A stretch of 64,000 nucleotides of DNA from a virus: positions 1-64,000 of IMG/VR virus record IMGVR_UViG_3300044620_001904; one strand, 5' to 3'. The stretch's first letter is position 1. The number at the start of each line of letters is the position of its first letter. The translations under genes and the position numbers were made by a program. This document shows positions 44,749 through 57,236 of the stretch, one piece after another. The notes beneath the pieces are model-generated. The model made no database searches. It saw nothing but the letters and a program-made list of their open reading frames with translations, and had not been told where the DNA came from.

Positions 44749-45138
44749 GGGCCTATAATTGGAATCGACTGGCGTAGTTAATTATAAAGAGCGTACCGAG
44801 GCTGAGTTAACCTTGTAAAACTGACTTATTAATTAGACGGAAACGTTATCAACAAACTTTCAGCAGTAGGACTTGTTCGTACTTCTGAAAAAGTAGCAGT
44901 AGCCTAAGGCAAACCTACAACGGGTCGGCGTACATTAAACCTTGGAACAGAAGTGCTTGCAAAGGGTGTGGTTTCTATCCAAAAAGAAACAAGTGGAGGA
45001 TTAGTTCTCAGTAAACCGAACCACTTTAAAAATAAGGGAATTGTGAAGTTTCGGATTGGTTAGAAAACCAATGTCCTATGTACGTAGAACTTTATACTTA
45101 GTATGAGCAGGACGGGAGTTCGAACCTCCCTAGGTCCA
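44749..45138 (+). ncRNA. ssrA: tmRNA (transfer-messenger RNA)
   Basis: The 390-nt RNA has a tRNA-like end. GGGCCTA (44749-44755) pairs with TAGGTCC (45131-45137), the discriminator is A, the CCA is not encoded, and the T arm is GGGAG-TTCGAAC-CTCCC. The 5' side has TTGGAATCGACTGG, matching the conserved CTGGATTCGACGGG of tmRNAs. The tag frame starts GGA at 44839 after TTAGAC, and stops TAA at 44905. It encodes 22 residues (start GNVINKLSAVG, end EKVAVA). The hydrophobic V-A-V-A end fits a degradation signal. It would rescue stalled ribosomes and tag proteins for proteolysis, perhaps by the encoded ClpC-like unfoldase. Confidence 0.9.
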
Positions 45139-45144
45139 CATTAA

Positions 45145-45950: not shown

Positions 45951-47068
45951 TATGGCTTACGCTGAGATTACACGTTTTATTGGAAATCTTTTATAGGATT
46001 ATGGGTTCCCTATGTATCCACCATCTTTTGAATGGTAATTTCCAGTGACGGTTAGTTAGACTAACCACTCCTTGAGGTACTAGTTACTCTTTTATTACTC
46101 AACTCTCCCCGAGAATGCCTCCCCAGTTAATCCTTGCGAGATTAGAGGTATTTCATAAAAATCTCATCAAACTTGCGGTTATCAGAGGCAATGAACGGCT
46201 CATTACTATGTAGTCACCTTTCACTAATACCTGACGGACACTTTTGCTCTTTTTTAAAAGTTGAATTTTAAATCGAAGTTACGTGTTGTGGATTATAGAA
46301 GTAGTGGTCCGCCACCGACTTAGTAATCTTTTGAATTACCAAATATCAAACTACTCCTTGAAGTGTCCCCACCTCCATATTTTAAGATTACTTCAAAAAG
46401 AGACTTTGGTAAGTCATCTTTAAGGATAATAGCGACACCACTCGTTCTTTATCATACCTTTGAGGTTGCCCCTTCGGTTTTAAGTATCCTTTCATATTGG
46501 AACTCGTAATAATATTATCGGATAATAACATTTTTTACAAAGTTCCTACGGGTTATTCTTATTGGTGTTCCCACCTCAACAGGACGACCCACATCGCCCC
46601 ATCAATAATCCATTTCCCTACGAAGTTATCCTCGGTACTACAGGTTTATTGATATCCCGCTTGTGTACTCGAGTTCAAAACAACCGAAGTTATTTCAAAC
46701 CGCAAACCCCTTACACTTGAGGATTCACTTTATCCCACTTTCGTGGTTTATTTAAGGACTATACACAGCCCATTATCGTTTACAAGTTATCATCATCCCG
46801 AAGGACTACTTTCACTTGATGGATAATCCATTATTTTAAAGAACATAATTCGAAACATGCTACCGACTCGCGTAAATGGTGAGTTTCCTCACACTATTTA
46901 GTCGGGTTCACACCAGACCTCCTTTTCGAATTGTTTGACAAAGTTACGAAATTTTTTTCACTTGTCAAGTTTTTTTTAAATTTTTTTTTCACTCGTTCCC
47001 CCCACCCTATCGAACTCAAATTAAATAACCTAAAAACTGATAGGGTGGGGTGACATCTAAATCTTTTA

Positions 47069-55598: not shown

Positions 55599-55683
55599 CG
55601 GAAAAGAGAGGTGTCGATCCCCACACCACGAAGGTGCCACTAGTTTTCAAGACTAGGTTTAGCGCCGGCTAAATTTCTCTTCC
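55599..55683 (-). tRNA. tRNA-Ser(UGA)
   Basis: Acceptor GGAAGAG/CTTTTCC, anticodon arm CTAGT-CTTGAAA-ACTAG, long variable arm, discriminator G. Confidence 0.9.
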
Positions 55684-56038: not shown

Positions 56039-56181
56039 ATTTTGATGAGTCACGGACTTGTGTACCGTATGTCCCCCTTTAAATTATTCACTAACCCAGG
56101 GTGTGGGGAAACTCATCATAATAACCCCCTTGATCGGATTAACGGACCGACTGCCATATCGGAAGTGGGGGTTAGACTCCG
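56039..56181 (-). other. Structured spacer in the tRNA array
   Basis: No gene is evident. An 8-bp stem TGATGAGT/ACTCATCA encloses 60 bases with an ACGG/TCCGT hairpin, and a second unit has AACCCCC/GGGGGTT around a CCGA/TCGG hairpin. Both look like tRNA-sized folds without a proper anticodon or T loop. Comparable spacers are at 56269-56470, 56859-56947, 57022-57236 and 57325-57430, each with one or more 5- to 9-bp hairpins. Confidence 0.5.
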
Positions 56182-56268: not shown

Positions 56269-56470
56269 ATATAAAACACCCTAATTTATCCAACTTACAG
56301 GTGTTGCGGTTGTCCTCATTTCTGAGTTAGGAATAGTCATTTGTCCTTACGAGGTCGAGTTGACTTGCTCTGAAGTTATCCCCCTCCACTCCAATGTAGG
56401 TTCCCATACGGCGATCAAACCGTTTTTCATCGTATTGGGCGTACTATCCGTTGTCGTGTTTCGGAACGTG
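56269..56470 (-). other. 202-base structured spacer, no gene seen
   Basis: The segment between two tRNA genes holds a long imperfect hairpin (CCCAATACG with CGTATGGG on the minus strand) and no convincing protein frame longer than about 26 codons. It is probably transcribed with the array. Confidence 0.5.
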
Positions 56471-56576
56471 TAGTCAGGACAGGATTCGAACCTGTATGGG
56501 TTTTTGAGACATCACTTCCTCTCGGTGTTCCACCCAGTTTATTTCAACTTGCGTCTACCAATTCCGCCACCTGACT
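56471..56576 (-). tRNA. Aberrant tRNA-like gene with expanded variable region (106 nt)
   Basis: Acceptor AGTCAGG/CCTGACT, D arm (GCG/CGC with TTGG) and T arm ACAGG-TTCGAAT-CCTGT are sound. The anticodon arm is poor (AGTT-GAAATA-AACT), and about 40 bases between GGGT and ACCC form extra hairpins (GGTG/CACC, GAGA/TCTC). The anticodon cannot be assigned. Confidence 0.6.
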
Positions 56577-56581
56577 ATTCG

Positions 56582-56725
56582 TTATTTCATTTTTTGTACT
56601 TCTTCAATTAACTCAATAAACATTGATTTTGTTATATGTTCCTGCTTTACCCACATATAAATTACCCCCATTCTTTCGTGGTAATCTTTTTTAACTTGTA
56701 ATTTTTCAATCAAATCTTTTATCAT
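56582..56725 (-). CDS. Small helical protein, 47 residues
   Basis: I choose the ATG at 56725 (MIKDLIEKLQVKKDYHERMG), since an earlier ATG at 56788 lies inside a tRNA gene. The product is helical with an amphipathic C-terminal half (KSMFIELIEEVQKM). No family is recognised. It is nested between two related tRNA-like genes, which is unusual, and may ride on the array transcript. Confidence 0.5.
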   Translation of the reverse strand: MIKDLIEKLQVKKDYHERMGVIYMWVKQEHITKSMFIELIEEVQKMK

Positions 56726-56744
56726 AACCTCGTATTTTATTTTG

Positions 56745-56858
56745 TAGTCAGGACAGGATTCGAACCTGTAATGATATGCCCCGCACATATCTGGATGGTC
56801 TAGAATTAGTTGTATAATTCGGAATTCACCACAATGTTACCAATTACACCACCTGACT
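56745..56858 (-). tRNA. Aberrant tRNA-like gene with insertion before the anticodon arm (114 nt)
   Basis: Acceptor AGTCAGG/CCTGACT and T arm ACAGG-TTCGAAT-CCTGT are identical to the neighbour at 56471-56576. Between the D arm and a hairpin GATATG-TGCGGGG-CATATC lie about 42 extra bases with their own stems (TGGT/ACCA, GAATTA/TAATTC). If the hairpin is the anticodon arm, the anticodon would be CGG with G at position 33. Confidence 0.6.
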
Positions 56859-56947
56859 ATTTGAGGATGAGAAGTCCTCTGTGTTGTAAGTTTTAGAACC
56901 AAAGGAACCGCACTCATCCATCCTTTCTCAAGGGAACAACAAATTAG

Positions 56948-57021
56948 TAGTCAGGATTGGACTCGAACCTGTTTTTCCTCCTTCCCTTTGTCGGAAGTTG
57001 TGCTCCTTACACCACCTGACT
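56948..57021 (-). tRNA. Aberrant tRNA-like gene, possible CAA anticodon (74 nt)
   Basis: It shares the acceptor AGTCAGG/CCTGACT with its two neighbours. The anticodon stem CTTCC/GGAAG is perfect, but the loop GACAAAG has A at position 33. The D loop is only 5 bases and the T stem ACAGG/CCAAT has two mismatches, so it looks partly decayed. Confidence 0.55.
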
Positions 57022-57236
57022 ATTCACCCCACCTTGAGATTTGAGGTGAGTAGTTATTTCGGTTTTCTATTTCTTAAAAACCTGCGGGGCGTCCCCCATT
57101 AAAACAGCCAACACTACTGGGAGAGATTGTGTCAGTCCCTTTATCCCACGATGTCCCACTCTAGCCGTAGACATTCTGCTAGTCCATTGTTAAATGAGTC
57201 TTGGACAAAAGACTGCTGAGTATCTCTTACTCATTG
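57022..57236 (-). other. 215-base structured spacer, no gene seen
   Basis: Hairpins CACCT/AGGTG, GGGG-CGT-CCCC and AGTCTT/AAGACT are visible. No protein frame or tRNA is supported. Confidence 0.5.

Follow-up and report, generated by a model that had tools for sequence, protein, structure and literature searches.

Known RNAs with tRNA-like ends

The nearest precedent for the RNAs described here is the species 1 RNA (RNAC) of bacteriophage T4, a late RNA of unknown function which has been seen by Northern blot (PMC9697503). Like the family of X1, X2 and X3, the three genes analysed below, RNAC is a phage RNA encoded in a tRNA cluster, and around a long middle in which no canonical anticodon arm is apparent it has acceptor-like ends and the T arm of a tRNA (CCGGG-TTCGAAT-CCCGG). 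Its accumulation as a stable late RNA is known for T4 only. However, RNAC has a different acceptor with two T-T mismatches, it has no sequence homology with the family in shell (the tRNA-like ends and arms) or cargo (the sequence that they enclose), and in the T-even relatives examined it keeps one conserved middle, no exchange of cargo being seen there. A homologue was found in Enterobacter phage AS6 (OR753410.1, 75090-75243; L268), where it overlaps a short annotated ORF. Compared by eye with T4, its T stem reads CCTGG/CCAGG in place of CCGGG/CCCGG, and an acceptor pair is G-C where T4 has A-T; these compensatory changes support a tRNA-like fold of RNAC.

Three further systems resemble the family in part. 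In the engineered tRNA scaffold, the anticodon stem-loop is replaced by a chosen RNA, which is then processed and protected, while the acceptor stem, T arm and D arm are kept as in the family (PMC3753655). That scaffold is man-made and derives from human tRNA-Lys3, whereas the family is natural, has a Leu-type D arm and carries hundreds of cargos exchanged by recombination. A tmRNA, too, encloses a long insert between tRNA-like ends and has no anticodon, but X1-X3 gave no Rfam tmRNA match at the gathering score and the tmRNA of their phage is a separate gene. Finally, GOLLD is a large structured phage RNA found near tRNA genes; it differs from the family in being one conserved cage-forming RNA and not a tRNA shell with variable cargo.

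Genes without an anticodon arm also occur in two cultured phages of Bacteroidota, with acceptors other than the AGTCAGG type. The annotated tRNA-Cys of Flavobacterium phage immuto 2-6A (MW353175.1, 20246-20331; L262) has no canonical anticodon arm and provides a cultured model for an anticodon-less tRNA-like RNA, and Tenacibaculum phage pT24 has two near-identical anticodon-less tRNA-Undet genes (LC168164.1, 192032-192110 and 192399-192477; L159). The tRNA-Pro of pT24 (192195-192267) has the loop CGCGGAG, without U33.

X1, X2 and X3 in their tRNA array

The window, that is the whole stretch of 64,000 nt analysed, belongs to a virus record of 95,261 bases. Judged by its Gp23 capsid and its T4-type terminase and portal, the source virus is a T4-type myovirus; the nearest named relatives of the portal include the Flavobacterium phages vB_FspM_immuto, and the phages that bear anticodon-less tRNA-like RNAs are probably phages of Bacteroidota. 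X1, X2 and X3 lie in a minus-strand array of 24 tRNAs (ARAGORN). The first-pass annotation had placed three tRNA-like genes here and described their anatomy, and both the coordinates and the anatomy were confirmed on the sequence. The features are as follows.

56472-56576, minus: X1, anticodon-less tRNA-like gene of 105 nt (Rfam tRNA, 38.4 bits)
56570-56576, minus: X1 shell, 5' strand of the acceptor, AGTCAGG (sequence)
56551-56569, minus: X1 shell, positions 8-9 and Leu-type D arm, TGGCGGAATTGGTAGACGC (sequence)
56496-56550, minus: X1 cargo of 55 nt, without anticodon arm
56472-56495, minus: X1 shell, T arm and 3' strand of the acceptor, ACAGGTTCGAATCCTGTCCTGACT, identical in at least 120 viral contigs
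56746-56858, minus: X2, anticodon-less tRNA-like gene of 113 nt (Rfam tRNA, 40.9 bits)
56852-56858, minus: X2 shell, 5' strand of the acceptor, AGTCAGG (sequence)
56834-56851, minus: X2 shell, D arm, TGGTGTAATTGGTAACAT, of the GGTG type found in 16 of 266 elements
56770-56833, minus: X2 cargo, with the hairpin GATATG-TGCGGGG-CATATC, no U33 (predicted fold)
56746-56769, minus: X2 shell, T arm and 3' strand of the acceptor, same as in X1
56949-57021, minus: X3, short tRNA-like gene of 73 nt with a decayed T stem (Rfam tRNA, 27.0 bits)
57027-57236, minus: conserved spacer of about 210 nt upstream of X3, between tRNA-Tyr and X3
56273-56486, minus: conserved spacer directly downstream of X1, the match taking in the end of X1
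57012-57021, minus: end of homology between the window and L122, the BLAST block stopping inside the 5' shell of X3
44749-45141, plus: tmRNA, near the tRNA array (Rfam)
45959-46358, minus: GOLLD RNA, near the tRNA array (Rfam)

All three genes begin with AGTCAGG and finish with CCTGACT, and they keep the acceptor, D arm and T arm of a tRNA while the anticodon arm is missing. As had been noted, the T arm is identical in X1 and X2 (ACAGG-TTCGAAT-CCTGT) and decayed in X3 (ACAGG-TTCGAGT-CCAAT), where two pairs are broken, and none of the three has U33 in a clear anticodon loop: the X2 loop TGCGGGG has G33, the anticodon-like hairpin of X3 (CTTCC-GACAAAG-GGAAG) has A33, and the loop of X1, GAAATA, is only 6 nt long. 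The 40 extra bases that the annotation had assigned to the variable region of one gene are one possible placement, but in the family the whole segment from D arm to T arm is replaced. X3 may be decaying; its score is below the Rfam gathering score of 29, and it is the only one of the three that ARAGORN lists (as Leu-CAA). Exact 20-mers from the cargos of X1 and X2 were not found elsewhere in viral_contigs, so that the case for a function of these two genes rests on the family.

The spacers that flank the genes are conserved as well. The one upstream of X3 has 96% mean column identity with L122 (660-881) and BLAST matches of 74-82% in L154, L043 and L096, and the one downstream of X1 has matches of 72-76% in L151, L080 and L050 (BLAST). 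Each is probably a conserved structured RNA, in the case of the spacer upstream of X3 an undescribed one, and the Rfam search gave no credible family for the conserved spacers near X1 and X3. A stretch similar to the upstream spacer precedes an element in L010.

Several other features of this region were recorded. The tmRNA and GOLLD RNA of this phage both adjoin the tRNA array. A tRNA-Ser with the anticodon TGA (55600-55683, minus) is absent from the ARAGORN list, its best Rfam match being tRNA-Sec with 44.0 bits, under the tRNA-Sec gathering score. By eye, a small ORF of about 47 codons (56582-56725, minus) lies between X2 and X1. The spacers at 56040-56150 and 56860-56920 contain 7-bp end pairs that resemble acceptor stems without a T arm (GATGAGT/ACTCATC, AACCCCC/GGGGGTT and GGATGAG/CTCATCC).

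The shell family and its cargos

By their sequence, X1, X2 and X3 are members of a large family of tRNA-like RNAs which phages carry and which lack an anticodon, built from a 7-bp acceptor, usually a Leu-type D arm, a T arm and A73-C74 around a variable cargo. Our catalogue of this shell contains at least 342 elements (306 distinct) in at least 204 mostly viral loci; the statistics given below refer to different stages of the catalogue (272, 266 or 342 elements), and it is conservative, some members of cargo family A with the acceptor AGTTAGG having been missed. The median length was 102 among the first 272 elements. The 25-base T arm and acceptor of X1 and X2 occurs in at least 120 viral contigs, and in 257 Gb of bacterial and archaeal genomes in only four contigs, all from metagenome-assembled genomes. 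Scanning with a pattern for the 5' half, AGTCAGGTGGCGNAAN{1,4}GGTANACGC, gave at least 120 matches, and the 3' half still reads ACAGGTTCGAATCCTGTCCTGACT-AC in loci that were picked only by their 5' half, most columns being 81-100% conserved (the exceptions are 69%, 55% and, at position 73, 76%); this conservation is thus not produced by the search. A strict tRNA-like scan of the same loci, made without regard to the acceptor, found 165 distinct anticodon-less elements of the AGTCAGG acceptor class and 12 with other acceptors, a ratio that is no census since the loci were mostly fetched through the AGTCAGG-type acceptor. The same scan found none in shuffled DNA and the shell recurs in hundreds of viral loci, so that X1-X3 are not a product of chance. 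Among 40 element-bearing contigs, the Gp23 capsid gene was found in 19 and GOLLD RNA in 9, both lower bounds because the contigs are often incomplete. No shared protein partner emerged: the commonest ORF cluster near the elements was present in only 17 of 170 loci, and the factors that act on them are therefore probably those of the host.

The elements resemble ordinary tRNAs in their acceptor stem, in their T arm and in a 3' end of the C74 type, and lack the anticodon arm with U33. A correctly placed 5-7-5 arm with U33 was seen in 29 of 266 elements and in 10% of shuffled middles, whereas 308 of 315 ordinary tRNAs of the same loci, taken as a control, have a canonical anticodon arm. The middle, from D arm to T arm, has a median length of 52 nt (25-90 nt from the 10th to the 90th percentile) compared with 22 nt in ordinary tRNAs. 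In the T stem, compensatory and G-U changes preserve pairs 49-52 to a degree that none of 500 shuffles reached, evidence of selection on the shell at the RNA level. Next to the discriminator, 259 of 266 elements have C74, much as 297 of 331 ordinary tRNA genes there end with a C. The acceptor sequence is nearly invariant across elements while the T stem varies, which suggests that something reads the shell itself, although the detection limit for the acceptor (Hamming distance of at most 2) contributes to its low variation. The Leu-type D arm, as in X1, is the commonest D-arm type of the family (145 of 266) and A73 is present in 242 of 266 elements; this combination would suit leucyl-tRNA synthetase, and suggests that the RNAs could be substrates of this enzyme. 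In E. coli, this synthetase is not known to depend on the anticodon. Another short shell (GGCTATG/CATGGCC, 67-70 nt) was observed in L112, L174 and L205, with three different short hairpins in the place of the anticodon arm.

Unrelated RNAs in the same tRNA shell, as a tRNA scaffold would have them, are what we found: the first 272 middles fall into about 212 unrelated cargo groups, including 170 singletons and 28 pairs, and a Chao1 estimate suggests several hundred further groups. One large family among them, cargo family A, has a 20-mer that occurs in 27 contigs and always inside a shell of the AGTCAG or AGTTAGG type. Its structure, with 30 predicted pairs, is kept in 98.5% of pair cells over 16 distinct sequences, with two-sided changes at seven pairs, and its covariation (0.188, against 0.096 in shuffles) was reached by none of 500 shuffles.

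Other cargos are not confined to one shell. Cargo F (GGGCAGGGCACAA...GAGGAACTTCCATTAC) was found in 12 contigs, mostly inside an AGTCAGG-type shell, and in L009, L278 and L273 it lies outside a complete tRNA shell, with a closing stem of its own in L009 and only the 5' shell remaining in L273. Another cargo sits in the shells TGTCAGG/CCTGACA, TGTATCG/CGATACA and TGTAGAG/CTCTACA (L012, L059, L069). One cargo can thus occur in several shells or in none, so that shell and cargo are separable. Cargo F was also noted as a highly conserved motif of about 75 nt (L009 8457-8519, minus; L063, L073, L270-L278), for which, as a stand-alone RNA, Rfam has no credible family.

Judged by folding energy, which by itself is weak evidence, the cargos are on average a little more stable than shuffled sequence (mean z of -0.58 alone, SEM 0.09, and -0.1 within the shell), and many of them may therefore be poorly structured or neutral. 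Matches of cargos elsewhere in the DNA examined were mostly further shell-borne copies of the same cargo, and apparent antisense matches were mostly shells in reverse orientation. Antisense action on the own phage was considered and rejected, the longest exact match at the own locus being 9.78 nt against 9.75 nt in shuffles (234 cargos).

Cargo exchange and the proposed role of the shell

Cargos are replaced as whole units at fixed sites. Over 97 contig pairs with homologous sequence on both sides of an element, cargo identity was bimodal: the cargos were at least 95% identical in 55 pairs, less than 60% identical in 38 and in between in 4; the swapped cargos make up 27 distinct pairs. When ordinary tRNAs were handled alike, only 5 of 156 pairs were below 60%, and with flanks of at least 97% identity the cargo was swapped in 6 of 50 element pairs compared with 0 of 65 ordinary-tRNA pairs. 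Contigs with flanks that are 99-100% identical carry unrelated cargos at the same site. At one site, shared by L010, L244, L027 and L250 (flanks 98.7-100% identical), three unrelated cargos were found, all of which keep the variant end CCTGACG of that site. There L010 has tandem elements with cargos C7 and C8, and L244 and L250 have a single element with C7 and with C8, respectively, as expected from recombination in the 3' or 5' shell. Cargos C3, C5 and C8 recur at different sites in different phages. In swapped pairs with flanks of at least 95%, the shared sequence reaches 10-15 nt into the element on the 5' side and 15-26 nt on the 3' side, which places the breaks inside the shell or at its edge. 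The window itself provides an example: the blocks that flank the genes are 92-96% identical (two of three) or 79% identical (the third) to those of its close relative L122, and, contrary to the possibility raised earlier that relatives have ordinary tRNAs at these places, L122 has a single element with a different cargo (882-999) where the window has X3, X2, X1 and Leu-TAA. Metagenome assembly error seems an unlikely source of the swaps, since the same swapped allele was found in contigs of separate metagenomes (L010, L244), the repeats that an assembler would have to confuse are mostly 24-31 nt long, and a typical read is long enough to span an element of about 100 nt.

We propose, with somewhat more confidence than doubt, that the tRNA shell is a natural tRNA scaffold, a cap by which interchangeable small RNAs are matured and kept stable. 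The host would mature the RNA like a tRNA, with RNase P forming the 5' end, and the CCA enzyme together with RNase Z or exonucleases forming the 3' end; the shell would then protect the RNA while the cargo acts. The short homology between shells could let general phage recombination swap, delete and duplicate cargos, which might be trans-acting phage RNAs whose diversity is kept by conflict with hosts or rival phages. More speculatively, and as a possible rather than a probable reading, the family may form a phage-wide pool of exchangeable trans-acting effector RNAs in a standard tRNA shell, traded by recombination. Such trading would keep phages ahead of host defences or rival phages and would resemble that of surface antigens or anti-defence gene islands, with the difference that the traded units are non-coding RNA.

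A rather unlikely alternative is a decoy, in which a tRNA-acting enzyme of the host, or a defence protein that targets tRNAs, is engaged by the constant acceptor and T arm; the middle would then vary either because it does not matter or because it has to escape recognition. The first-pass annotation had raised it, and was correct on the anatomy: acceptor and T arm are kept, the anticodon is gone, and the near-frozen acceptor beside a varying T stem agrees with it too. We nevertheless favour the scaffold, because a shell holds many cargos and one cargo occurs in several shells or outside a tRNA shell, because the middle is longer than that of a tRNA and has not been trimmed, and because one large cargo family covaries.

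It is unlikely that the shells are punctuation, i.e. RNase P and RNase Z signals that release the conserved spacer RNAs, with the middle as filler. Spacers conserved between diverged phages beside X1 and X3, and tRNA-like ends with C74, would suit this role, but 171 of 266 elements are on loci without a predicted ordinary tRNA and the covarying cargo is not expected of filler. Moreover, some elements appear to have a promoter-like motif of their own: TAnnTTTG ends within 10 nt of the first base of the element in 20 cases, against 1-6 per other 10-nt bin, a position which suggests direct transcription of a subset of elements.

That the elements are neutral relics, duplicated tRNA genes which lost the anticodon and were shuffled by recombination without function, is in our view quite unlikely. 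The earlier suggestion of decaying duplicates fits X3 alone, with its broken T stem and sub-threshold score, and most cargos are indeed singletons. However, across the family as a whole the shell is preserved in diverse phages, over hundreds of contigs, and C74 is retained, and the compensatory changes in the T stem and in one cargo family are not given by decay. The loss of constraint on shell and middle that marks a tRNA pseudogene is thus not found in the family, and X3 alone could qualify.

A DNA-level recombination site or cassette-insertion element that resembles a tRNA by accident would explain why exchange breakpoints fall in the shell and why many mosaic contigs have only one flank in common; it is very unlikely, given the compensatory and G-U changes of the T stem, a signature at the RNA level, and the lack of a protein family common to the loci. 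Finally, tRNAs with small removable introns, also suggested at first, are hardly credible: the extra bases sit where tRNA introns can occur, but canonical anticodon arms are no more frequent than in shuffled middles, and on inspection X1-X3 still have no canonical arm when these bases are taken away.

No description of an anticodon-less tRNA shell family was found in open-licence PMC papers, and within these papers a natural tRNA-scaffold system in phages seems to be undescribed. The family would be the natural counterpart of the tRNA scaffold that biotechnologists built by hand, and would supply many naturally selected RNAs, possibly stable in bacterial cells. It also offers a handle on a long-open question, the role of species 1 and 2, the stable RNAs of T4 that are not tRNAs. 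If the proposed scaffold is true, the "undetermined" tRNAs and pseudo-tRNAs of phage arrays are at least partly an expression system for hundreds of small RNAs.
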